A stretch of 64,000 bases of DNA from Ectocarpus siliculosus (taxonomy: Eukaryota > Sar > Phaeophyceae > Ectocarpales > Ectocarpaceae), in contig FN649750.1 of the NCBI GenBank assembly GCA_000310025.1, positions 3,489,472 through 3,553,471 of the forward strand. Reading direction: 5' to 3'. Position 1 is the first letter of the stretch. Every line of letters starts with the position of its first letter. Of the stretch, positions 36,862 to 58,900 are shown in pieces. The translations under genes were made by a program, and so were the position numbers. The notes below the pieces were generated by a model. That model saw only the letters and a program-made list of their open reading frames with translations, was not told the origin of the DNA and did no database searches.

Positions 36862-39765
36862 ATGGCATCGCTGAAGCGGAGTGCCGAGGACGCGCTTGAT
36901 AGCCATGGTGATCGGGAGAGAGGTGCCAGTGGACAAAGAGATGAGATCAGCTCTTGCGTTGGAGGACCATCCCAAGATGAGAAAACACCAAAAACCGGGA
37001 ACGCTCCTCCGCCAAAGAGCTCGTTGGAAAATCATCCGGCGCATCAAGAGGGTCAACTACACCTCACCGGTGCCCTGCCTAAGCTCGTCGTGCTCGACCT
37101 GGACAAAACGGTGAGAACGAGGTTGGTGGCCTACGTTGGCAACTACTTTGGTGATTGCGACTTGGTTGGGAGAATTCGTGTTCGAACACCAGGCCCACAT
37201 GACCCCATTTTCACCAGGCGCACTCTTCGTGCTTATTTACACTATACCCTCTCACGATACACGGCACACGATCACGATGCACACGATGCACCGAATGGGG
37301 ACACAAGGCGGCGATGTGCTGGTCACTGTGCACCTGTTAGCGCTGTATGATGCCGCTCTTCAAGCGGTTGGTCTACATACACACATACGTCGACATACGA
37401 ATCGATACAAGTAGGATCGGTCGGGAAAGAGTGTGATGAAAAATAACAAGCAGCGACGTCGTGACGTGTGGTAGATGTTCAGCATCTTCAGAAGAGAATC
37501 AGCCAGGTCACGTTTCAGCCCCTCGGATGGCCTGACGATGCTAGATTTTTGGCATATATGATCGCGACATCTCGCGACCGAAACCTACAATATTGTTGTT
37601 ACTATTGGACTGCTGCACAAGAACATTTGCAGCGTTGAACATACACGTGTGCGCTGGGGCTACTCAAGAACGGATGATGAGAAGAAAGGGAAACTTGACC
37701 CCTAGGGCATGGTGCTGCGCCACAACCATGTGCTCTCCCATCAATTTTGTTCGACCCCCCGCAAGAACCCGTTCGCGTTAATGCCTGCAAGGCCCCATCA
37801 AATCATGATGTACATGAGCCGTGAGAATCATCTAGCACACAAGAAACATTTCTTGACCAAATAGCACGGAGACAACAAAGCCAACATGAACTCTTCCCGG
37901 GCCTTTTGATGACAGAAGGCAAACGGTAGCACAACCAAAAAACAGCCTCAGGGTCAACTCGCGAACTGATTAAAGTTAGGGTGCATGCCATATGTGTAGT
38001 TCTGGCCCACGTTCGCTCGCGGGGGGGTTCTTCCTCTTGCGGTAGGAGTCTATTGCTGAGACACGAATTGCTCATGTCCGGCTTTTTTTCCCGTGCCTGC
38101 GCCAATGTACTTAGAGGAACCCGAAAGAGGCCGTTCATGCTCTCAACCTACCGGTGTTGTGCAAGCGCGCGTGAGCCACTGATGCCGTCAGACCTGGTTG
38201 CTCTCTTCGGATTCGTCAGTTTTGGCTGAGGACATGAAAGCGAAACAAACCCCGTGAAGGAACTCCATGAACGACAGGCCGCGACAACACAATGGAAACA
38301 TGCCCGACGGAACTACGTTATCCGAGAACTGAACCTATTGCCCTGATCTGCTCCGATCACGACGTCCACTCAGGTGTGGCCCGTCTACTGCCACGAGGAA
38401 ACCAGGGGGCCGTACACTCGGTGCCTTGGCAACACTCGCTTCTGTGACAGTGAAAGCGCTGTGGAATGTTACAGTTCCTTCGGGGGGAAAAAAGTCGTAC
38501 GACTTTTCCCTGACGTGGTCGCCCTATTACGTTGCCTCCAACAACAGGTGGGAGCGGGGCCTCCATCGGTGGTACGTTGAACACATTGAACTGTCTCGAC
38601 CTCTGTTTCTCACTGTCTGTTGTTCTCACGCGGTCCTTTTATTGGTCTACTTCATTCTACCTACACCAGACTGCATTGGTGCGGCTACCTACACCAGACT
38701 GCATTGGTGCGGTGGGAGTTCAGTGTTCGCATGGCTGACCGTAAGCCATTTCCCCACCATTCAAGGGATCAATCCGCCTCGCCGTGGCAAGTCGTTCACC
38801 TATAGACGAGGGCGGAGCAGCACGAGGCATCTTGGGCGCCGTGGGGCTACTGGGCCTGTTCTGCTGCCTCGAAATTCACACAGGAAGCAAGGCAAAGCAT
38901 TTCCAGGTACGTGTTTGGTATTGGCACCTTCCTGACCTTCGCCGCGAGCTGACTTGTCGCGCCTTTTTACTTCAACTACATTCCGCACCGAGAGCTCATG
39001 GAATTCATTTTGGTTAAGTTTGTGAAATGTTATTGGTCTGCTGCATCTCGGCATATTTTTTCTTTGTTTGGTGCACACATTTTCTACCAGAAACGTACTC
39101 TCCCAATGGGAAGCACCGTTCATGATCGTGGCTCACAACCAAACCGAAACCATTTTGACCTCCGGTTTCGGAACGCCAACCCCGGGGTATGCACTATCTT
39201 CAAAACTTGCGTATTTATTCACTCCGGTGTACCTCATCCGTAGGAAAACGGTCGCAGAGCGGTTCGAAACATTTCGTGTACATGCCCGAATGGAAGTCTT
39301 GCATATGGAAGTAAGGAACTATTGGTTTCAAGTAGAACCCACGCGATGAGAGTGAACTGGTGAAAAGCAGGCTCTGGTGAGAACCGTGGGTATTTGTTGG
39401 TTTTGGGCCCTCACAACTCGGCACCAATTCGCGCTTGCAACGATGCCCACTTCTATTCTACCGCCGTCCAGAATATCCACGCGGCTACGGGTGTAGAATA
39501 CCGAGACATGCTGTTCTTCGACGACGAAAAGCACAACATTAAGACCGTCAGAAGGCTTGGCGTGACCTGCATCAAGGTTAGCAAAGAATCCGGTCTAACG
39601 TTCGCCGCCGTGAACGCGGGGTTGAAGGAGTACAGGGAGGCGTGCTTGTCGCGGTCAAGCCTGAGAGGTTGGTTCACCCCGGCGGCACCGAAAGAAGACA
39701 GCGAACACGCGGGGCAAGTAAAGAGGGACTGCGCAGATGGCGCGTGTAGAGACGAACCGCGGTGA
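36862..39765 (+). CDS. MDP-1-type HAD phosphatase
   Basis: Magnesium-dependent phosphatase of the HAD superfamily; MDP-1 acts on protein tyrosine phosphate and on sugar-derived damage adducts in animals. Firm exons: 36862-37110, a middle exon ending at 38549 (from about 38451), 38766-38906 and 39472-39765. Exon 1 encodes an about 70-residue charged leader and then LPKLVVLDLDKT, HAD motif I with nucleophile Asp79 and acid Asp81. The middle exon gives VVRLFPDVVALLRCL; the next gives RLAVASRS (motif II region) and LEIHTGSKAKHF; the last gives YRDMLFFDDEKHNI (motif III/IV acids) and LGVTCIKV. A small exon after motif I is missing; TTCTGGCCC at 38000 is a candidate (FWP, cf. LWP in the family), but phase is not proven. 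The C-terminal tail beyond GLKEYREA is longer than in animals. Confidence 0.85.
38657..38712. repeat. perfect 28-bp tandem duplication
   Basis: Two exact copies of a 28-bp unit starting CTACCTACACCAGACTGC lie back to back in an MDP-1 intron, 53 bp before the acceptor of exon 38766-38906. Exactness implies a recent slip or unequal exchange. Confidence 0.9.
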
Positions 39766-39954
39766 AATCCAAGCGGATTCGTGTTCTCGTTTCTACGTAC
39801 TCACTGAGCGTAACCTTGTTGGACCCTGAAGCCAGGCACGTCAATGTTGATACTGGTAGTATTCTACAGGATTACGGGTTCCACGGGGTCGTGGGTATGG
39901 TACGTTAGCTTGCAAACCAGTGCGAAGTGCAGTTGGTGTCGTGTCTCATGCTGT

Positions 39955-40256
39955 GGGGGGGTCTACACCCGTCACCTTGTGCGACCGACTGCGACGGCTT
40001 CAACTCCTGAGCGTCGTCAACGAAATGATGGCTTTATGTATAGACAAGGGGTAGCCTTCTAGTGTACAAGTCTAGAGATACCACCCAAGTGCGGAAATGG
40101 CACCGCGATGGGGGGGTGTACACCCGTCACCTGATGTGACTGTCACAGCTTCACCTCCCCAAGCGTTGTCAACTAAAGTAGTCTGATCATTACGGATGTA
40201 GAAATTGGTAGTGTACAAGTCTAAAGCTAACGCAGTAGTGCGGAAAAAGGCACAAA
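39955..40256. repeat. diverged tandem duplication, about 155-bp unit
   Basis: Two imperfect copies (39955-40109 and 40110-40256). Shared landmarks are GGGGGGTCTACACCCGTCAC / GGGGGGTGTACACCCGTCAC, GTGTACAAGTCTA and GTGCGGAAA, in the same order. It fills most of the 567-bp gap between the converging MDP-1 and thioesterase-like genes and may lie in their 3' UTRs. Confidence 0.8.
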
Positions 40257-40332
40257 AGTACGCTCACAGAGGTGAAAAAAGACACCGCAAGCTCGTTGGA
40301 CAGATTTGTGGTCTTGCCAAGCTTGGAGGCGT

Positions 40333-43300
40333 TTAGTGATCGTCAGCCCCACGGCGTGCCAGACCGCCTGATCCCGACTCTCTGCGATCTTCGCTTGCTT
40401 CGGAATCTGACCCATCTTGAACCCTGGAGGGGGGGAAGCACAGCAAGAGTTGAAGGGCACAATGAAGGGCACAGTGGGTGTTGTCAACACCAACACCCCC
40501 CATTCCAGGTTGAGACTGCCTCGGGTACCGGTGCTAGCTGTGTCTGTACTTGTCATATGCGTTCTGTTCTGTACTCACCACGTGGTTCTCGGGTCGTCGA
40601 CGGCCTTGCCTTCATGTGTGCAGAGATCTCTCAGGAGCCGCAGAATTTTGACCTATAAGAATGTACGACCGAAACGTAAAGAGTCAGGTTATAGGATGCA
40701 ACAGCTGCCGTTGAACGCCGAGTTTGAGCAAGTTTCGTGGGCGGATAGCTGCCGCAGCGACCGGTCCGGTCAAGACCGTTTCGCCACATGAAAATTCCAT
40801 ATTGCCCATGTCTGGGCTTCTCTGAAACGGATTTAGTGGCACTGTGTCCGTCCACATCAAATTGCTCGGAAACAGTTTTTGTCGTACGCGGGTCTGTGAC
40901 ATGCTGCTCAACGTACACACAAGTACAGGGCTTGTCAAGTGACCGACGATTTGATTTTTGTAATTGTTCCCGACGGAGGACCCTGCCAACACTGCACCTC
41001 AAACCAGGACCACCATCTTTTTCCAAATAACACGGAAACATGAGCCCAGTTTCAACTGCGCCGACCTCGTTATCCCGATCCAGCAAGAAGAAAGAGCCCC
41101 CTGGAAACATGGTGGTCTCACTTGAGCCCGAGGACGATTCCATGGCCCACTTACTCATGTCCTGCTCCCCGTCCTTGATACCTCCCAGGCTGTATATGGG
41201 GCACTCAAGCAACGTGCCGCTCTTGTATTCATACGTGTCCACAGCGCTAAGTGGGGTCGAAAGAGAGCGTTTTCGGGGGGTTGGTGAAGAAACTGACTTG
41301 AGTGCCATATTCCCATGAATTGCAGGGGATCACGAAAACACCTGGGTCGTTGCATGCACGAGACACCAAAATAGCTGGGACAGCGATAACAATACCTCGT
41401 TGCGTGCGCGTCGCTCACCTCAAGTCTGCAAACCACAGAGGCGTGAATATCTCCATCAAGCCTTTGTTCTCGAGCAGTTCCGGCGGCAACGGCGGTCCTC
41501 TCCGAAGCATCGCACTCTCAAACTGTCCGATACAACAAACGTGTATCAGGTGCATGCGAAGACGTTTGCCTACTTGCCACCACGCTGTGAAGGTCGTAAC
41601 ATAGTGAGAAAAGTAATGGGTATGCTACGGGTAACACATAACGAGGTGTGTATCTCTTGAGATGCGGGACTGCCTGTGTCAAGTTTCGAGGTCAAGCACT
41701 TGCTCGTGTTGTCGATTAGAGGCACACAGACATACATACCAGTCTTCGGTGCCTCAAGTACAAAACGTCAGGTTTGTTCACATAGTACGCGCCTCATTCT
41801 CAGCGCCGATTCCAACGAGATGTAGCACAAACATGTTGGCGTTGGGCAAACATCGTCTCGTAAGTTGCACCCTCAATGGCGCTGCAGTAACGCCAACGTG
41901 AATATTCCCCAGGGGCAACGGTATTCCATTACCTCATACGTATATCATTGTAGACGGACTTACCTCGGCATTTTTTGCGTGTAGAATCTCGCCCTCCGGA
42001 GAAACTTGGCACAGCGACGTCATTTTCTCTCGTCCGTGTACCATCTGCACTGACGTTCAGGAGGAAATGGGAGAGGGTGTCGGAAGCAGTTCAACGCCAA
42101 TTTTTTCGCGCCCAAGAGAACGTTTCACCACACTTTCGAGCGTAGCCTAGCCTGTAGTCTTACGGAACTTGGAAAAGGCTGACCAAGATCGTTTTGGCGT
42201 TCTTGTGTCCCTTTGTGGCCCCACTCAGAGTCCTCTCTACTTCGTTACTACTGTACTTCGACAGGATTTGCTTTAGTGCTTCCACAAAAATGCGTACGCG
42301 TCGCCTGTACTAAACCGCTGCGATAAAATGTCCAACTAAGGTCATAAAAGAGGGCCATCCACCTGAGGGCAGCTCATGCTTGATACGATGAGGGCTTTCA
42401 TGGGGAACTCGTCTTGCACCCTCCGACATATCTCGAACGCCACAAGTGCTCCGAAGTCGTGCCCATATATTAAATACGGGATGTCCTCGTGTGTTAGAAG
42501 ATGAAGCCCGCAGATCGCCTCAACCACCATCGTCACGATATCCGACAAGTTTGTCACGGCATTCTCTCTCGCACGTCTGGGTGGAACGATAGCAGCAGCA
42601 ACAGCAACAACCAAGAGCAAACAAGCATCCCTGTTCATCACTGAGCCACGTATGTTTTACGAATGTCGGTCGGATGTTTTTGTACAATGAATGCGACTGC
42701 TTAGGATTCCCTATGCCAGTCCCGTCACGTGTTCTGTTTCCGTCTCTGGTGTCGAGCTACAGCTTCTTCTGAGAGGAATAGGGTGGCGTCATTGGCTGGG
42801 CTCATAATGTCTCATGTTGTGGTCGCCAAACACAGACCGCATTAACTCCTCGTTTTTCCCACATTGCGGAAACAATCAGTTCACCATGACTCTTGCATTC
42901 CTGAACTCCTGCATTTCGCGATAGGAGCGCGTCCTTGGAAACGTGTGCCCATCACTGGCCGCCAAGACCAGCCGTAAGACCGAGTACTTACGTGAGTCTT
43001 CCCGGCAGTAGAAGGGGCACAACTTCCACTCCAGGCAGTTCTTCTGACCAGCGTTCAAACATGAGGCTGTTTCCTCCAGCCCACGGACAGCAGAACAAAC
43101 GCGCTGATGCCTTGGGCACGCGGTGTCGCAGATCAACCCACGCACGCCATGCGAGAATGTGCTCGTGCTCGACCCGGTCCACATCATCCTGGGAGTTCGC
43201 ATGGTAACAAGTAACAAGCGCGACGCTGGTTTGATGTGATTTAGACAGCATGGTGTGCACCAGCAGAACCTCATTTCGACCTGCCAAGCGCGTTTCATAC

Positions 43301-43379
43301 TCTCTTCGAGAACGGAGGACAGTTTGCCCCCATTTGCCTCTGCGAGTGTGTCCCGACTGCAAGGTCTTGTGCATGCCAT
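40333..43379 (-). CDS. type II thioesterase-like alpha/beta hydrolase with altered active site
   Basis: Resembles GrsT/OLAH-type thioesterases, which remove acyl chains from carrier proteins of polyketide, peptide and fatty-acid synthases. Exons on -: 43281-43379, 42992-43188, 42363-42576, 41964-42044, 41419-41522, 41066-41246, 40579-40652, 40333-40423; all GT-AG and in phase, 346 residues (family about 250). Seen: RLFCCPWAGGNS, FERWSEELP and LLLPGRLT (N-terminal strands and the PGR signature), LVAFEICRRV after the nucleophile elbow, PPLPPELLENKGLMEIFTPL (lid/C-terminal helix), ECPIYSLGGIKD and FPGGSFFLLD. The elbow reads GHDFG, so the nucleophilic Ser is Asp139. The usual catalytic His in FPGDHFF is Ser283. 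Asp257 of the acid position is kept. It is therefore probably not an active thioesterase. The N-terminal 33-residue exon and C-terminal acidic tail are not family features. Exon 1 is the least certain. Confidence 0.85.
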
Positions 43380-44323
43380 TGCTGACGTCAATTTCCACCT
43401 TTTGTGGACACCACTAGGCTGGGATGTAGGGCCGGGGTTCTCGATCTCAATGCTGGCGCGGTGCTGGGGTGCGCCTACCAGTGAAAGTTGCGTTCATTGA
43501 GTGGGCAAGCGGTATCTTCTCAACCAGGCACACAAAACATGTGCCGAGAGGTCCGACGTGCTCGCTGCGCACGATGAAACGGACGAAGGAACGAAGGGGC
43601 TTACTTCATCACCAAGAGGACGTAGGCTGGAAGGTACCCGCGGTGTTGAACTTTTGCACACTGACAAGACCAAACTCGTAGTGTACTTTGCCTTTCACCA
43701 CGAGCTATGTAGCTGCATGTCACACGATCAGGCAACTAAGCTGCTACAGTACATCGACAGCCAAGCTGCTAGAATTGGTCTCAGGCACAGCTTGTCATAC
43801 TGGCTATTCACCATCGCATGGTACGGAGTTACGCACGGGTGTGTGCGTAATAATACCGCAACAGCATTACTAGAAAGCGATCGCACCTCCGCGCCAGTGC
43901 TCGAACACGTGCGAAAGTACCAACTCATATGAACAGAGACAGGGTTCTTCTTGCCATCTCGTTGTAGGGTATAATAGAAGGCTCAAAGTGCTTTGATTGG
44001 TGCTGCTCTGTATTTGATAAATGTATAATGTCCAACCTGCTCGATGAGGTTCTTCTCTTCGCTGTAGTCTCCACATTTCGCGAGTGCTCGTTCAGTGAAG
44101 TTAGCGTAGAAATTCCTGCATGGTACCGTTGGTGATGTCGGCGGTCAGCACGTAGACAATAGGTGTATGTGCATGTGCATATCTCCTTGTTGCATTCCAT
44201 CCATCTATAGGCTAAGTGACAACGATGCGTGTGTCTAAACAGACGAAGGAAACAGTTGCCTCACACCATTGGCGTGACCTGCCGATTTTCAGGAGGACCC
44301 GACCATCAGATGAGCCAATGGAT
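43380..44323. other. intergenic, no gene supported
   Basis: About 0.94 kb between the start of the thioesterase-like gene and the stop of the small - strand gene. A 143-codon + frame (43501-43932) has no family likeness and no clear promoter or splice context. The left end must contain the thioesterase-like promoter. Confidence 0.4.
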
Positions 44324-45039
44324 TTATGGGATTGTGTTCCGAGTTTGGGCATTGTGGGTTGGGTTCGGGACAACAACGCGAGAGCGAATGTGCGGCAGCT
44401 GCGCGCTTCCTTCGCCGTGGTTCTCCTTCCGCGCCTCCGCAGGATATGTTGGATCTCCTCGCTCCCCTTCCCTGGCAAGCTCGCGATGGATGGGCCGGAC
44501 GGGTCCAAGCCACTCGATAAGTGCGGTAGCCCTGCTCGCTCTATGTTGGTGTGTACAGTACAGTAGATGATCCACACAGAAATCAAGTTAATTGTATTGC
44601 CACTTTTCACCGGCATTATACAGGGCAACCGGCATTATGCGACCGCCATTATATCGGGACCACTGCTAACTGTAGCGCTGTGTAGGCTCAACCGAGACGG
44701 TGATTAGGCTATTTTTTGTTGAGTACCTTTCCGGGTCCTGGAGGGCCATACAAAGATTGAATATGCTGCAGTAAACCTATCCGCTATAAAGCTCTATGAC
44801 GGAGCTCAAAGTAGGCTGTGTATGTACATGTTTAATCACCCGCACCTCCGCGCCTGCTTCTCCTTGGCGCTCATGGTGTCAGCCATCATGGTCCCGACCG
44901 CAGCCCCCGCTTCTTTATCAGGGTCTTTCGGCGAATCACCTGCCCAATTTGTCACCCAACCGTCGGTGTACTGCAGCTCCTCTCCATCCCACCCTGGCAA
45001 GCTTCCGTTACAGCTGCCGTCATCACGGTCGCCTTCCAT
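44324..45039 (-). CDS. small unknown protein, two exons
   Basis: I do not recognise it. Exon 44846-45039 starts at an ATG and reads MEGDRDDGSCNGSLPGWDGE, then DGWVTNWAGDSPKDPDKEAG and SAKEKQARR, ending CGGAG|GTGCGG. Exon 44324-44531 begins after GAGCAG| and continues in phase with ATALIEWLGPVRPIHREL, GDPTYPAEARKENHGEG and RSRVVVPNPTHN to a TAA. Total 133 residues, hydrophilic, charged, with three Trp and no membrane segment. Composition and phase agreement suggest a real gene; a further exon replacing the second is possible. Divergent from Maf, so expression may be coupled. Three 10-bp CCG(G/C)CATTAT repeats occur just upstream of exon 2, at about 44614-44655. Confidence 0.45.
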
Positions 45040-45374
45040 CTTTCTCAAAACTGATGAGCGACGCGTCCCGCGCCAGTCAACTATATTTTCGCGAAACGTT
45101 GAATATGTTCGCAGCGTACAGCGTGCGGTCGTCTACACTCTTCTGCATGTCGTCGCGCGTGTGATCGATAGGTACAGCGTGCATGTTAGCCTGCCCTTTG
45201 TGTTAAGATATCGTAAAAAAAAAATCGGGAATCCGTCACAGTCCCGTACCGACGGCATCGGGTAATATGTCTCTCTTGTTCGGTGTTGTGTCTTTGGTCT
45301 TTGGTGCACTCCTCACTCCTCGCCGTCGCACACCGCCGCTGGATCCGAGCTCTTTATCAGGCTCTCCGCAGCTT
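45040..45374. promoter_or_regulatory. shared upstream region of the small gene (-) and Maf (+)
   Basis: 335 bp between the two preferred start codons (227 bp if Maf begins at 45267). It must carry both promoters. An A9 run lies at 45216-45225. No defined motif is seen. Confidence 0.45.
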
Positions 45375-48300
45375 ATGTATTTCCAACGACGGGTCTTTGT
45401 CTCACTAGTAGTTGCCGTGGGGTCACCAGCACTGCACACGAGTGCTTTCTTTCTGCGGCCGAGTGTCGTCGCCGCGCGCGGCAGAACTACGAGCAGCGGC
45501 GGTTCATGTTCGATGACTTCGTCACCTGGGCACAGCAGCAACCAGGGTCAAATAATTCTGGGCTCGAAGTCCTTCACCAGGAAGATGATCATCGAGGAGA
45601 TGGGCTTTGTCCCAATTGTAAGGTGAGTAAGTTTGGTGCTGTGGGGGGACGGCAATCGCTAGACTACAGCAGTATATGCATCTCTCTCCGCCTGCTGTTG
45701 GTGGTGGTCCGAAGTCCGAAGCAGCTGAAACATCTTTCGTCGTGCCGGAGAGCTGAAACAGACATGGAGGATCGCCACCTTCCCGCTCTCCTCTCTAAGA
45801 CAAAGTGCACATCATCTACTTGCTTTGGGTCTAGACTATAGCTGCAGTTGTGCTTTGTCCGTTTATCCATCGGGCATCGGGCGGGCATGGTGCATGTTGC
45901 GCCGCAAGTAGACTAAGTGTCGTCGGTTCAAGTTTCAAGTGAATCACGCGCCCTCAATATTAATTAAGGAAAAATAAAAACACTCAATATATACTAGGGG
46001 GAACGATAGGCCCCCCGCCCCCCAATAGGGCGGGCGGTCACCATGCCATGCGTGGTAAGGCTGCCGGGTTCGCGAGTTGATGTAATGGTTGAAAGCCGGA
46101 AACAATCGTGATGTGGGGGAGGCAAGAGTTAGAGTTATCGATCCAAAGAGAGGCGAATCCCGAATGGTCTTTAGACTCGGCGCTCGCTGTAAAAAATACT
46201 GATGATGACGAGGGTTGTTGTACAGAATCGCCCATTTTTCGTTGATTGATTTATGCAGGAAGGAGATAGATGCACATACACCGCGTTGAGGATCATACGA
46301 CAATGTTGTCAAGGCGTTTACGACAACTATATGCATACAACAGATAGTTTTCATCGGGTTAATTGTGTGTACAAGTTGGGACATCAGTTCGCATGTCTGT
46401 GTCTATTTAGGCGATAGTCAGTCGTCTTGTGGACGCGTCGCCATCCGAAAATGTTAGCGTACTGTAGAGTCCAACGTATTGTGTCGACCAATGGCTGCGA
46501 ACGCATAGAATGTTTCAGGTGTCATACCTCAGCGTTCGCAAGAAGACTGGTTCCACCAGAGTATGCAGTAGTTCGCGTGGTGGTGGCGACTGCATGCAGC
46601 GTTCCGGCTATGGACGCGTATCGTCGCACGTAGATGACGAATTGATTGTTCTGAATCGACCGGATGGTATTCCGTGTTTCTTTTTTGCGTTTTGCAAATG
46701 AAGTTTGAATGCCCTTGGATCGGAAGATCATGATGATGTTTGATTGTTATGATTGTTGTACGAATATGCTTGTCATATCCGCCGTTGCTGTGGATCACAA
46801 GACACACGTGGGATAGCACAACTTGACAGGGTGCTCATGTGTGAACACAAGGAGTCTCGTTTTTTGTAGTGTATAGCAGTGGTTACACATATGTCTATAG
46901 ATGTTGTTGTTGATGTTGCAGGATGCATGTTGCTTCAAGCGTGTGTGTCGGCAGAAGCGCATGCGGTATGTGCAACGTTCGAAGGAAGCCGGATGCAATG
47001 TTTCCAACACCGAACCGAAGCCGGGAAGTTGGTGGGAACAGACATACACATGCGCTCTTTGTTGTCTACAGCTATTAACTTCTCTCTGCATAGGATTTTG
47101 GTGTTGTGGATGACACATGTACTGTATCTACGTCGGATAAATGAAGAGGGTCAGGTGGAACGGCCGAAGCATTGGATGTGGTTGTACAGTTTGAAACAGG
47201 ACCATAATCATTGGTAAAGTCACCAGCAAGGTCATCACGTCATCGCAATCCAACATTGCTGTTAACGTTCGTACTGCTGCCTGGAACAGCTGAATTATTC
47301 CACGGGTACCACCTCATTAGACGGAAGAGCAATTTCTTCGCAGATTCACGTGTGGCACGTCGCGTGGGATCGCGTGGCGAAAGAAAAATCGCATCCACGT
47401 GGGTCCACTGTAAAATCAAGTCTAATGTGGTGCAACATCCTGTGAGTACATATGTATATAGCATGATACCCGTCTTTTCTGTGGAAGAGACGTTGACTCT
47501 GAAGTTGTTCAGGCGTTGGCTGAGTGAAATCTTGCTTCATGAACTGCGGTCGGCAGGTCTGCAGACATCAATGAGGCAGCGATCGGCGACCGCACTGCAG
47601 ATCCGGCTGACCTCGTGCTGCAACTCGGGCTCGCTAAGGCGGAGGCGCTGCTCCCTGCACTGAAAGCGGAGGCTGACCGTGGAGAGCTAAGCACTTCATG
47701 GCTTCTGACGGGAGACCAAGGTACATACGTCCTACCGTTTCTGCCACGAAGCGCTCCACGCTTTCGCCCGAGCAGTACCTGAAACGGGCTGCCCCGGTGC
47801 ACTATGCATACATATCACTGCGGGATTGGTCGTCGGCGTTTCCCACTGCTTTATGCTTGCAAGTAAATTTCTGTATTACATGTAGGTGAGAGGAATGTAC
47901 TCAAACCGAAACACGTGTTGTGGTATTGGTGTGACAATCGCACTAGCTACGGCATTCGCTAGGGAACGACACAGGGGCAATGCAACCACCATCGACGGCT
48001 GATGTTTCGTCATTTTTCGGAAGTATCGGAGTTGTCGCGCAGCAGGCGGTGCGTTACAACCGCCAGAACGACGTGGTTGAAGAAACGACCGTACGTACCG
48101 GTGTGCGAATACTCCCAAAGGTCATGGCACCTTGGAATACAGTAGTAGACCTCAGAAGCCGATCTCGAGCTCGACGATATCTACGTCGACACAATCTCCC
48201 ACCAAGATGTGCTCTGGCTTTTGTCACCCGCGGGGAATTCTTACCATACCGTCTTCTGCTTTTCGCCGCGCCCGCGCGTTTTTGGCAGTTGTCGTCCACG

Positions 48301-50488
48301 ACGGCCGGATCCTAGAGAAGCCCGCGGACGAAGATGAAGTGCGAAGGAACATCGCCAGTTACGCGGTAAGTTTGTCTTTGGAGGGGGCTGCCGTTGGGGA
48401 TCGCGTGTGGTCACGGTCATACAACGAACATTGTGTACGCACAAGTGATGTACCACCACCACCGGTAACGGTAATGGTAACGGTGTGTAGATGGTGTTCG
48501 CGCCAGTCAGTGCAGTGCGGCACCCGACACAAGGCCGTCTGAGTAAGGCGGTTGCCCGATACATGTATGTACGTATGGCGGCTGAAATTGACGCGCGCAC
48601 TACCGGGACCCGGTATACGGCGGCAACCGCTTTCGACGTTACTCAGGACAGATACGACAAGACGGTAGCAAACCACCGAGCGCATCCTACTACCAGGCGG
48701 TGGCACCTAAGTACATTGATTTGTCTGTTAAGCGCGCGTGCCTCTCTCGTACCATTGTAGAGACTTCGAAGGGAAGAACGCGGCCAGAGAGAGAGCGTGG
48801 TAAAGTACGCTCGCAGCAACAACGCCCCCCCAACAGCTTTGTGAAGTTGGCCGCACGTGGTTCTTATTCGGTCCATGTTGAAAATTTTGGTTGATGCTTC
48901 CTCACGGCGTGAATTGATTCATTTCTTGTTCCTCGTAGACCCAAGCTTTGCACTGAGTCGGGAAAATAACCCAGGCAGGTCGTGCGGGCTTTCTCAGGGC
49001 AACACAGTACAGCCCTGGTGGCGTGCTTGCCGGGTCCTTCTTTCAAGTGGGAGCCAAGAAATGGATATTCACCTTTTGTGTGGACCAACTCAAGATCTGT
49101 TTTCGGGGAAATAGCACGACGTGTATATTCCTCGATTACTATACGACAGTTTGTGTTGGTTGTGCGAATGAACTAGGAAGAAACCCGCGGATGTCTGACT
49201 CAACGTGCCACAAAAGATCGTTGCGAAGAGTAGCGAGGACGCTACAATTCCAACACCGCCATATTTCAGTTTCCAAAAAGAAAGAGACCTGCCCCTCTTT
49301 TATTCCATGCCGATTCCTGTGCGGGAAGGTATTTGTTGCATGTGATCGACACTGACCCTGTCTTGACCGTTTCGTCCCAAACCCCCAGCGATCGCCGTGT
49401 CGGACAGTCGGGTCTGCAGTTTTAACGGACATCTCAACCGGGCAGCAGTTTTCGGGGGTTGATACTGCCGAAATATTTTTCAAGGAGGTAAGACGGTGGT
49501 CGTGTGTATCATCCCCACCTACCGGGATAACTCGTTTGTGAACCGCACGTCCCAGCACCTACTTGTACGGAGAACATTGTTGTTAGTCTTGGCGTATGCA
49601 GTAATACCAGGTGAATCCCTTTCGGCAGTCGATGATCGCCCAGGGTCTGTGCGCACGGCATTTACATCAGGGTCTCGGCAACCCGTCGCAGCAAAGCCTG
49701 GTTTGCCACTTCCGGAGGTCCTCCGCCCATGACGCGAGCGACGGAGGGATCACCCATCCCCATTTCAAACGTCGTCTGATGTCTGATGTACGTCTCCTGT
49801 TCCTATTTACTTCTTCAAAAGTAGACAATATAGTTTCCTGAGCACAAGCCAAGCCACAAATAAGGTACAAATGAAACACATTTGCGAGAGAATAAGCCCC
49901 CCGAGATATTCCTACATCATCATCGGTGCTCCGGACAGAAGGTGACGAATGCAAGAAAACTCCAAATATAGAGCTCTGCTTCAATTGCGATTACAGTATT
50001 ATCGACGCCGACGATCATCGTCAGCGTCGCCTATCTGAGTTATTTTTATTTTTTTAATACTAATTAGCATTAAGCCGCGGGCCCGAACCTCGGAAGCCGA
50101 ATACAACCCCAAATGTATACATAAAATAGCACACTAGAAAAAAAAAAAACACCTGAACCGTCCTCGTACGCCTACGGGAGTCGGGGAGCACTTCACCGTT
50201 GGGCTTACCACCAGGCCAACCCTCTCCACGGCTCGCCCAGGTGTGCCAAGATCTTCACGAGTAAAAACGTAAAAACGACACGAAAGTAAACCACGCACAT
50301 CACGCGACAAGACACGACGTACCGTCGGCTTCTCACCAATCAGACAAACCGCCCCCCAATGCAACCGACAGAGCTTAGGGTGTGTAGGAGCGGTCAAGTA
50401 ACACGGGACGGTCTGTGCGATGCTACTTGCATGGAAGTTAGACAAAGTGTAGTACTTGACGAGATAACAACCCAAGAAGTAAAATCCG

Positions 50489-52914: not shown

Positions 52915-55900
52915 CTAAACCAGAGTAAGACTGCCGCAGCGGTTACGGAACGGACCGAGCAAAGGTCGGGGGAGGGGATCACGCGACAATTCACCTGAGG
53001 GACTTGTTCCCTGCGTTCGAAAGCCCCGACTCCGCAGCCTTGACAGCCACCTGTCGGCGCTTCACAAGCAGATTGAACCTGATGCAAGTACACGCGAACG
53101 GGAGACGCATGACGGAGACTGTCAAGACAGCAGTGTCCATAGCGTCAACATCACGTTAAGCATGATACAAACCAGCATTGGTGAACTTCTGACACGTAAG
53201 GAATGGTGATTGGTGATTGGTGATTGATTGGCCGACTTATGACAAGTGGCTCAGCAGTGCGAAAGACTGACCAAAGCTCAGACTCGAGGCGCCATCGCGG
53301 AAGGGCGTCTCTATCCAGTCTATCCAGCAGGCCGAGAAAACAAAGTAGCACCACCTATGTACACCACGTAGCCCCCAACAACACCGCCCCACAGGCCGTC
53401 CCCGAACAACGAAAGTAAGAAAGTCGATGGCTGCGCAGAGAAATAGCACCAACACTCGATTGTACCGGACTGACTCGCCTGTTCTTGACGTCGTCGTAGC
53501 ACCGGCCGGGAATGTTCCTCGCTATCTTCGCGAACTGGTTGTGGTGTTCGGCATGCAACTGCATCACCAGGGCATCCTCCTCGGCCGTCCAAATCTTGTC
53601 CTTCTTGATGCCCGGGTCTACGTGGTTGTTGTATCGCTCACGGCACTGTTTGGCCGTTCTCCCCGGCATCACCTCCGCGATCTTGGCCCAGCTGCCGACG
53701 ACGCAAACATACAAAAAACAAAAAAAATCAGCACCGATGGTTGATTGCTGCACAACCTGTCTCCTACAAAGCAAATTCCTGTCCATGGACGAGCACGTCA
53801 ACTAGCGTACACGAACAGCGCTGCACAGCTGTTCATGTGCAGCACGACAATTTAGCTTGATGTTGCGGGAACAGAGTGGCTGACGTCAATCCCAAGCATG
53901 AACCGACGCGCACGTGGTTGTAGACTCTGCCCACTCCTGCCATGAATCTTTCAGAAAGAACGGAGCCCAAAAATTCACGTACCGAGGTCCGGTTGAAGGC
54001 GAAGAGAAGACGGGTGCCAGCTTTCGCAGACGCTCGTCTTCCTCGGCTCCCCAGGTCCCGTTGCCCCGAATGATGCCGTTGTCGTTCAGCGTGAAGCGCC
54101 AGTGGAGTAGGCACTGGATTCCAGTCTGCTCCACAAGACCCCACACCGTGTACAGAGCGTACGAAAAGTAAGAATTAAGTCTGCACTTGTGACAAGGACA
54201 GGAGCCGCTTTACCCTGGGAAGGGGCACGGAATCTCAACCTTGAGACTATGCCTTGGTCTATACACCCCACGAGATGCCTGTTCGGCGCCTATGTGTGAC
54301 TTTCGTACCGTACCGTTTGGTCGCCCTCTTAATCCCGTAGCTTCCGAATCTGAGGAGTCATACACACGTGAAAAAAAAAAACGACCTATAACCCTCACCT
54401 TTGTCGGGAAGTAGCGCGCGATGCTCGGCCATGCGTGTGTCACGGGGGCCACTACAACCATGAAAAAGTTGACAACAGAACGTGGGCAGCGACCACAAGT
54501 TAGTATACCGGGGTTGGCGCGCTGATTCGAGATTGCCAGGAAGTGGTGTGTAGAGAAGTCACGATTTGCGAGAAGACACTGAGATCGTACGTATAGATTG
54601 AATCGAGCTAGCCGAATGCAACATGTACTTTTACAATACATTGCCGAGTTGAGGACAGTGCACGAGACATCGACACACGACATTAACAATTGCCAAAGGC
54701 TTCAAGACAAAGCTAGAGACCACGCTGCTGGGAACTCGCTCCAGTCACTTACCGAGTTGGTTGACTAGTTCGTCCAGTTTGCGTGTCTCCTCTTGGTTCC
54801 AGTCGGTCGGACGGTACCCCTCTACACCCGCCCCTTCCATTGCTTGATGGTCTTCCGGAGTCGTGCGCTTGTAGGGGGCGCTCTTGGTGGCCTCTCGCTT
54901 ATGCGACCGTTGGTGCTTCTGGACCTGCCAACAACAACGGAGGAGAATTGAAACACGAGCGATCGCTATTTTGGGTAAAGGCTACAGTGGTACGCACCCA
55001 ACGTCAGCAGACACGTCAATGCGCCAGGTAAGGGGCCACTCCTACAACGAATCACTCTGTACTCAAGGGGCCCTCCATCTGGAAACGTCGGAACACCCCT
55101 GGGCTACGCTGTAATCTTGGTCGCGGGGGGGGGGGGTCCTTATATGTCCCCGGTCGGGAATATTTTGACAAAATCCCCGGGGTTTCGACATTTTCGGGCG
55201 CTTTTTTCAGCGCGCGCGCGCGGGATCCCACACAGAGAGCTAGTGGAAATCATGGGAACACCCCAAGAAAACGCGTCAATCTTGGTCGCGAGGTCTAGAG
55301 TATGGTGTAGGAATAAGTATGACGACACGAAGCCTACAAATGAAGAGAATTTTATGGGTTTTAATGCGGCACGAAAGTCTGTTCAATGAAGAGAATATCG
55401 GTTTATTATGGACACACTAAATCCTATACAAAAACTGCTGCAAGCGTGCCGCCTAAACCCCCTATATTGCGCTGCAATCTTGGTCCGGGGGGGGGGGGGG
55501 GGGGTGGGGGGTTCCCCGGTTTCCCCCTGGGGGGGCCCCCCCCCCTTGTTGTAATCCCTTTAAAAATAAAAAATTTTTCTTTCAAAAAAAAAAAAAAACC
55601 ACCCTGGCGCCCAAAAAAAAACCCCCGGTGTCCTTTTCCTTTTTCAACCGGGGGGGGGGAAAACCCCTGCCTTTTTTTTCCCCCCCCTTTTTTTTTTTGG
55701 GGCCATTTGAAGGGTAATGCCCCCCGGAAACCATTTCTGCCCTTTCAAAATTTTCAAAAATTTTCGGGGGGAAATTCCCGAAAAACCCTTTTCCAAAAAA
55801 ATCCTCCAAACTGCGGTAAACAAAAAGGGATGCCCCCCCAGGGGCCCGGGATAACCCCCCTTTTTTTCCCTCCATTTCCCCCAAAAACCCTCCTGGCGAC

Positions 55901-58900
55901 AAAAAATTTTGCACCCTCCCCCATCCTTCCCGGAAAAAAAAAGTTTCCTGCCCTTTTCCCCCAAACAAAAACCCCTCCCCCCCNNNNNNNNNNNNNNNNN
56001 NNNNNNNNNNNNNNNNNNNNNNNNNNNNNNNNNNNNNNNNNNNNNNNNNNNNNNNNNNNNNNNNNNNNNNNNNNNNNNNNNNNGGGGGGGGGGGGGGTCT
56101 TTTTATTCCCCCGGTGGGGAATTTTTTGAAAAAATCCCGGGGTTTTGAAATTTTTGGGGCGTTTTTTTCGGGGGGGGGGGGGGGGTTCCCCCACGGGGGG
56201 TTGGGGAAATTCAGGGGACCCCCCCAAAAAACCGCGTCATTTTTGTTCGGGGGTTTTGGGTTTGGGGGTGGAAAAAATTAGGCCGCCCGAAGCCCTCAAA
56301 AGAAGGAAATTTTTTGGGTTTTTATTGGGCCCGAAAATTTTTTTAAAGAAAGAAAATTTGGTTTTTTTTGGGCCCCCTAAATTCTTATAAAAAAATTGCG
56401 CAAAGGGGCCCCCTAAACCCCCTTTTTTTGCGCTCCATTTTTGTTCGGGGGGGGGGGGGGGGGGCTGGGGTGTTCCACGGTTTCCACATGGAGGGCCCCT
56501 CAGCCCTTGCTGTACTCGCTTCAAAACTACAAAATTATGCTTCAAGAATAACAACGAATCAACCATGCTGCCGAGAAGATAGCACCGGCTGTCCTTTACC
56601 TTTTCGAGCTGGTGGTGGTGAAACGCCATGCCTTTCTTCTCTCCGCCGTTGTGTGTATGGGTGCAGTTGGAGTGGTAGTGCCTCCTGGAAGCGATTCGTG
56701 CCTGTCGAAAATTTCAAAATATTGTCGGGTGGAAATGCCGGAAAATCCTGTGTCGACGAGATGCATCGATACTGCGGTACACAGAATGGCATGCACGCCA
56801 AGGTGCCAGGCATGACCGCGCTTGTCTGCAGTCGATTGCCTCAAGAAGCGCTCATGGCGACAAGATAGTTGGCAGCTGCAGCGATCGTTCCGGCAAGAAA
56901 AGTGTTCACTGCCGTTCTCGCCTAACCAATACCCTCTCCGCCGCCATGGTAAACGACAGCGGTAACTCACCGCATCCCTGTAGGTGCAGTCCCGGGAGGT
57001 GCACACGCTGCCCTTTTCCACCACCACCCACAGGTCTTTGTCGAGGCCGTCATCGTCATCATCGCCTCCCTCGAAGGGCTTCAGGCGTGCCAAGGAAGGC
57101 ACGGGGCTGTGCACCGGCTGTTTGCAAAAAAACAAGGACAAAAGTAAATAGACACAACAGGGTTGTACGCCGTGAACAACGAACGGCCTCTGACTCCACA
57201 ACAGCAACAGCAGTGGAGAGGGAGGTGATACTTGCTTACGTCATCCCAGCACTGACAGAGCCTCATACCCGTGACACCAAGAAGCATGCAAGGAGCAAGA
57301 ATTATGGTGGTCGTGACACCAACAACGAACATGGTGATGGTGGCACACCGTGAGAGGGCCCACTTGTACATTACAACCATGTACAAATATGTTCTTCGAC
57401 GTGCAGGTAGGCAGATAGAGAAGCGTCAAACGCGCAGCATACCTTGGGCGCGTCAACCAAGGCAGGCGGAGTACTGGCGATGTTCCTTCCGGCGGCAGCT
57501 ACACCGGCTTGCTCGGGCCCCGAGGTCACGGCAGCCGTCGTTGTCGTTGGAGCCTCCAGCTGAGCCCTCGTTCCCAGGTCGACAGATGTCCCCAAGCCCA
57601 CCGACATGAGCGCCTGGACGGCGCTTACCTCGTCCATTGGCCGCTGCTCCATCGGCAAAACGCCTTGTTCCGACTCCGCCGCTGCTGGGGTCCTGCTCGC
57701 TTGCACGTTGTTGTTCACGCCGCCCCAATCCCCGGGTTTGGTCGTAGCAAACGCCTCGGGTTCTCCCACGTGCCACTGCGACGGCGGCGTGGGTGGTTCG
57801 GTCATCGCGGGCGACAGGGGTCCCAAGGCAGGCGGCCCTCCTCCTGATCCGGCGAAGGCGGGGGGTCGGCAGTGAAAACCCGTCACGTTGACCCCCTTGC
57901 CGGGCGAAAAGCGCGGCGTGAGGCGAGCGGTGTCGAAGTACGGGGCCCTCCCAGAGGTCGAGTACGTCGGAGACGGGGTCAACCCCATCATTGCCATGCC
58001 GTCCTGCTGCTGCTGCTGCGCTGGGCCGCCGCTGCTGCTGCTGCTGCTGCTGTCCAGAGCCTGGCTGAGCCGCATCCGCTTGATTTCCTCGAAGGGACGC
58101 GTGTCCGCATCGGGCATGACACCCATCGCCGAGCTCTGAGAGACCAACCCAGCGACAGAGGAGCCTGTAGCGGGTGCCTCGCCCTGGCCGCGGACGTTGA
58201 CGAAGTAGGACGCCCTAAGCTTTGGCGCCCAGTCCATTGCATTGCTGCCACTGTGTTTTGTGTACCGTAGCAGAGAGTGCGGGCGAGGAAGAAACACGAT
58301 GGATACAAGCAAGAACCCGGCTTGTGATTGTCGGTTGGGGGGCAATTGATTTGTCAAGTCAGGTTCACAGGTGCACACCAAATAATCATACTAATACATC
58401 TACTCTCAGGTGGAAGTAACCCGTGCTCTTCGTTTTCTGCAGACCCTTCAGGTGGTGTGATGCTGCAGAGAAAACAAACCGCGCTCTGTCTGGTGAAGGT
58501 GCGTGTTAGTGTGAATGTTCGAAAAAAAAAAATGCCTGCCGCCAAACAGGAGGCCGACACGAACGAACGCCGTTTTTTTTGCGTGTGAGCGAGCGCCTGA
58601 CTAAATAACTGCTGCCAGGCTTCTGCGAAACGTGAGAGAACGTGTTCCAAGTTTGGCACGGCATGAAAATCCAGACGCACCTTGGATCCCGCGTTCCAAA
58701 GTCGATGGCAGACGTGAGCCCGGTACCCCACGGTGGGGCGGTGCTGCGGACACGCCAAGACCGCGGCCGGTCGGGTGCGATGCTCGGCTGAAGAGGGGGT
58801 TCTAGCGCCTGGTTTGCAAAGGAAACGAGGGCAGCAAGCAGTTCAAGAACGGATCTAAACCATGCGGCATATGCCATATCACTAAAACGCCTCTCTCGAC

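Follow-up and report, generated by a model that had tools for sequence, protein, structure and literature searches.

A type II thioesterase relative in Ectocarpus siliculosus that lacks the catalytic serine and histidine and may be retained for binding

The stretch of Ectocarpus siliculosus DNA analyzed here (the window, 64,000 nucleotides in length) carries on its minus strand a thioesterase-like gene of five exons, spanning 43251-41066, in which 4/4 introns have GT-AG borders; the intron phases hold the reading frame, and this last point the initial annotation of this DNA had stated. Exon 1 (43251-42992) encodes the RLFCCPWAGG and LLLPGR segments and ends at the donor AC/GTAAGT; its candidate start is the ATG at 43251, and a second in-frame ATG lies at 43374. 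Exon 2 (42576-42363; acceptor CCCAG, donor CAG/GTGGAT) contains the nucleophile elbow, YGHDFGALVAFE, with D127 in the place of the usual Ser. The lid region, as judged from alignment, begins in exon 3 (42044-41964) and is completed in exon 4 (41522-41419), which continues into LPPELLEN...FADL and includes F216 at the position of the family's Arg. The core of exon 5 (41246 to approximately 41066) supplies CPIYSLGGIKD, in which the acid D245 is kept, and MFPGGSFFLL, in which S271 occupies the His position. The frame then remains open over 41065-40631, where the stop at 40631 represents a putative 3' end. The span first assigned to the gene (41066-42576) holds exons 2-4 and the core of exon 5 and omits exon 1 (42992-43251), home of the AGG and PGR motifs that had been quoted in its description; the residues there called Asp139 and Ser283 are D127 and S271, the earlier numbering having an N-terminus 12 residues longer.

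The core reading frame is open across 233 codons, with a GC content by codon position of 0.558/0.429/0.635, the third-position value comparing with an intron GC of 0.485-0.523. Residue 127, in the GHDFG elbow, is encoded by GAC and residue 271, in FPGGSFF, by TCT; two or more base changes would be needed to turn GAC into any Ser codon, and likewise to turn TCT into any His codon. Beyond the core, the C-terminal helix of the family was not recognized in any of 631 C-terminal models, including read-through to 40631. The best alternative splice scored 226.6 bits versus 224.2 for read-through, and none stands out; since the scoring profile contains the window gene itself, only the differences between these scores count.

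Ten open reading frames of the window (eight of the 29 that reach 190 amino acids, and two shorter ones) were scanned with Pfam. Three gave a match, to an acid phosphatase, to an RNA-recognition motif and, below threshold, to an importin repeat; the other seven gave none. The acid phosphatase frame (PF12689) is exon-like and lies downstream of the thioesterase-like gene on the opposite strand (39364-39765, plus). Also downstream of the gene are direct repeats of two kinds, 32 and 38 nt long, which interleave (39954-40246) and are each present in two copies with a spacing of about 150 nt, and a run of N is found within low-complexity sequence at 55365-56277.

The spliced protein matches the Pfam Thioesterase family (PF00975) over residues 51-279 (E 7.9e-25). 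The score is 88.8 bits, the curated cut-off being 26.4, and the match runs through positions 2-214 of the 226 in the profile. No other alpha/beta-hydrolase profile in Pfam exceeded its own cut-off with this protein, the only other listing being Hydrolase_4 at E 0.25. A sequence search of the PDB returned 14 solved sequences at E <1e-3 (20 up to E 1), the nearest of which is the medium-chain S-acyl fatty acid synthase thioesterase 4xjv (E 1.7e-21), which we take to be human OLAH, followed by RifR (3fla, E 3.1e-19) and, behind these, other thioesterases. Counted by eye in the RifR alignment, Ser94 falls on D127, Asp200 on D245 and the His of PGGHFF on S271, these three being the catalytic residues of RifR. 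In the terms of type II thioesterases, Asp127 stands where GHxxG provides the nucleophilic Ser (or Cys), Ser271 stands where FPGGHFF provides the catalytic His, and the catalytic Asp is present as D245. The type II thioesterase framework and both replacements claimed in the initial annotation are borne out by these results, and the gene is confirmed, at the level of sequence, as a relative of type II thioesterases in which the nucleophile and the base have been replaced and the acid kept.

Two sets of prokaryotic relatives were used to establish how unusual these replacements are. The first came from a motif scan of species genomes, with patterns in which parts of two motifs were specified, any residue was accepted as nucleophile, and the base could be either His or Ser; in the best 80 of 100 relatives the nucleophile was Ser in 80/80, the base His in 80/80, and the acid Asp in 79 and Glu in one. 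The second was obtained by searching with the window protein itself rather than by motif, with matches in 8/8 chosen genomes, in 44/292 and in 19/296 (23, 62 and 49 matches, respectively, some of them repeated). Tallied on the 80 loci returned, this set had Ser at the nucleophile in 77 and Cys in three, and His at the base in 79 with a single gap. When the sets were pooled and near-copies removed (160 reduced to 150 distinct relatives), the nucleophile was Ser in 147, Cys in three and Asp in none; the base was His in all 149 that could be read, the one gap belonging to a cut-off protein; and the acid was Asp in 148, Glu in one and a gap in one. The position of residue 216 is Arg in 144 of the 150, versus Phe in the window gene.

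The genome from which the window derives (189 Mb, 492 contigs) was searched by profile, only the best candidates being scored, and among these the only other clear type II thioesterase is a paralogue on contig C2, with six exons between 5367 and 1671 on the minus strand, GT-AG introns and a clean frame. It carries GHSFG and GGGHFF, with Ser, His and Asp all present, and is 38% identical to the window gene (33% in a larger alignment). Pfam Thioesterase gave 10 matches among the best candidates, two of them belonging to the window gene, three to the C2 paralogue and five to other places. Four of those five (L012-L015) were set aside as candidates, three because another hydrolase model fits better and one (L012) because, while above the Thioesterase cut-off, it is fitted equally well by Lipase_3; the remaining match, on contig C10, has E 1.08. 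An Abhydrolase_6 search of the genome provided no further lead on the gene.

Three introns are common to the two genes in position and phase, namely a phase-2 intron following PGR, a phase-0 intron preceding the lid and another of phase 2 within the Asp-Leu/Asp-Tyr segment, which lie ahead of exons 2, 3 and 5 of the window gene; two introns are particular to the C2 paralogue and one, before exon 4, to the window gene. In a maximum-likelihood tree of both genes and 95 prokaryotic representatives (214 columns, LG+G4), in which these two were the only eukaryotic sequences, they were sisters with an ultrafast bootstrap of 97, on branches of 1.19 for the window gene versus 0.72 for the C2 paralogue. 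The tree says that the two genes would have duplicated after their split from the prokaryotes sampled, and the shared introns imply that the duplication took place in a eukaryote.

The losses of the window gene at conserved positions were set against those of the C2 paralogue at several levels of conservation. In the second set (73 representatives), the window gene loses the His position alone among the six columns conserved at 98%, only that position of the pair counting at this level, since the nucleophile is Cys in three relatives; C2 loses none. At 95% the window gene keeps 9/11 columns and loses the nucleophile and the base (chance of both being among the lost, 0.018) versus 11/11 kept by C2; at 90% it keeps 18/21, losing the catalytic pair and Arg216 (chance 0.014), versus 21/21; and at 85% it loses 5/28 columns (chance 0.026) versus one in C2. 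The first set (37 representatives) was partly shaped by its own search patterns, and with that reservation the window gene keeps 21/23 columns at 95%, losing exactly the nucleophile and base, versus 22 in C2. At 90% in the same set it keeps 28/32, versus 31 in C2 and a range of 28 to 32 among the 80 relatives, so that it is level with the two lowest of them; at 80% the figures are 43/56 and 50. Besides the catalytic pair, the changes at conserved positions of the window gene include Arg to Phe at 216 and Gly to Pro at 196. Together these comparisons offer modest evidence that catalysis has been lost while the rest of the framework was retained.

The reading that we favor, at a probability only slightly above one half (about 0.52), is that the gene encodes a catalysis-dead duplicate with a type II thioesterase fold that has been kept for binding. 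An ancestral thioesterase gene with the usual Ser-His-Asp triad would have duplicated in this lineage; one copy, now on C2, would have remained canonical in sequence, and the other would have replaced its nucleophile and base but retained the rest of the conserved framework, with its AGG glycine loop, its PGR segment and the Asp of the triad. Because the protein has neither a Ser or Cys nucleophile nor the His, ordinary thioester hydrolysis should, from the established mechanism, fail. The ligand of the product is most likely an acyl or phosphopantetheinyl group, a carrier protein or something related to these, bound but not hydrolyzed, and the protein may serve as a chaperone, competitor or sensor. 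That the protein is made, adopts the fold and binds a ligand that it does not hydrolyze is what we infer. A non-catalytic binding partner was one of two possibilities raised in the initial annotation and is the one that we prefer; the other, new chemistry, has gained no positive support in its Asp-nucleophile form.

The foremost competitor of the binding protein is an early pseudogene, that is, a duplicate that lost its function and then its catalytic residues under relaxed selection, has not yet accumulated stops and does nothing. We regard this as the less likely of the two, but it is a serious contender, and the earlier view that decay is unlikely was too confident: the frame is intact, yet the family's C-terminal helix goes unrecognized, the Arg and Gly at positions 216 and 196 are also altered, and the branch is longer than that of C2. 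Against decay, the core contains no stops, frameshifts or broken splice sites, the frame and all four splice sites being intact; GC3 exceeds intron GC; the catalytic pair is hit by the losses more than chance would predict; and at 38% identity to the paralogue, a long period free of constraint should have left stops. In view of the framework, glycine loop, PGR segment and acid that are kept, and of the precedent of GID1, we favor a ligand or carrier binder over a decaying gene.

Much less probable is that Asp127 acts as a nucleophile, attacking an alkyl halide, an epoxide or an activated acyl group; with no His to hydrolyze the adduct, it would stay esterified, and the protein would behave as a HaloTag-like single-turnover scavenger or sensor of a reactive metabolite. 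In epoxide hydrolases and dehalogenases that use an Asp nucleophile the elbow reads GHDxG, and GHDFG fits that pattern and supplies the Asp nucleophile expected of haloalkane dehalogenases and epoxide hydrolases; their catalytic His, however, is replaced here by Ser271. In dehalogenases the nucleophilic Asp is followed by a halide-binding Trp, but in the window gene the next residue is Phe, and the family match is to thioesterases, with no dehalogenase or epoxide hydrolase family reaching E 1. An Asp nucleophile without the His is what was engineered into HaloTag, in which the intermediate remains bound (PMC8555439).

A rearranged form of catalysis, in which water or Ser271 would be activated by Asp127 as general base, perhaps with a His of the lid, and hydrolysis would be slow, appears more doubtful still. 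Asp245 is retained and H180 lies in an insertion in the lid region of the window gene, both of which such a mechanism could use. However, none of the 80 relatives of the second set has a residue in the columns of H112 and H180, H116 is His in 11/80 of them and H161 is not conserved, while H126, which adjoins the nucleophile, is His in 72/80; moreover, the side chain of Ser is probably too short to reach the place of the imidazole.

Wrong exons or an error of assembly or sequencing are the least credible of the explanations. A tblastn search of the whole window (E up to 1), for which the C2 protein and 30 relatives served as the 31 queries, matched the exons already assigned and a further 13 places, among which it found no usable alternative exon supplying Ser or His. 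The strongest match outside the gene (7229-6999, minus; E 7.9e-4) lacks the elbow motif. A weak thioesterase-like match at 51001-50801 on the minus strand (E 0.12) ends in GHSFGG and is probably due to chance; given its in-frame stop and its position some 7.5 kb upstream of exon 1, it cannot stand in for exon 2. Although neither end of the gene is certain, an error would have to account for four or more wrong bases, divided between two sites in separate exons, each of the two codons being at least two changes from those of Ser or His, in a core whose frame is otherwise intact, which makes it very improbable.

If the product of the window gene is indeed a binding protein, possible partners are encoded elsewhere in the genome, none of them linked to the gene. 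Carrier domains and PKS-like exons are present, but no condensation (NRPS) domain was found in the genome at E 0.01. Ketosynthase matches occur at three places in the genome, on contigs C198, C1 and C20, and none of the ketosynthase, condensation or carrier-domain matches falls within the window. On C198, a 65 kb contig with a stretch of N, a carrier domain and ketosynthase exons occur together (40000-49900), an arrangement like that of a type I polyketide synthase; sequence there resembling a ligase end had no Pfam match. Two carrier domains lie in tandem on C4 (28000-37900), and on C33 (1284500-1294000) a single open frame of 1467 codons combines adenylation, carrier and GNAT acetyltransferase domains; contig C25 likewise has a carrier domain. 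An E. siliculosus gene annotated as a type I FAS has been argued, in a published survey, to be a type I PKS (PMC4661987).

Searches of an open-licence library gave no paper whose title concerns a pseudoenzyme among the thioesterases, a thioesterase with Ser replaced by Asp, a type II thioesterase in a brown alga or a thioesterase in Ectocarpus, and no paper with GHDFG was found there. The haloalkane dehalogenases, epoxide hydrolases and HaloTag resemble the window gene in having Asp at the nucleophile position, HaloTag also in being without the His, but the window gene differs in its family match and in having no halide-binding Trp after the Asp, and HaloTag is engineered. The dehalogenase triad is Asp-His-Asp/Glu (PMC6100074), and in HaloTag the replacement of His272 by Asn leaves the adduct trapped on Asp106 (PMC8555439).

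RifR (3fla), the surfactin synthetase thioesterase (2k2q/2ron), YbtT (6ba8) and 4xjv are like the window protein over the core and in the AGG, PGR, GHxxG, GG..D and FPGG.FF motifs, from which it departs by Ser to Asp, His to Ser and Arg to Phe changes and by having no recognizable C-terminal helix. The gibberellin receptor GID1 is an alpha/beta-hydrolase for which an origin as a receptor with loss of the active-site His has been suggested, and in this respect it offers a precedent for binding without hydrolysis (PMC3531792). Unlike the window gene, GID1 derives from the hormone-sensitive lipases, a different subfamily, and keeps its Ser; it shows that an alpha/beta-hydrolase can turn receptor after losing a catalytic residue (PMC3531792). 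The C2 paralogue has a canonical triad and, unlike the window gene, a shorter, family-like C-terminus, and if the window gene is expressed, the presence of this canonical copy in the same genome would allow the two proteins to be tested directly side by side.
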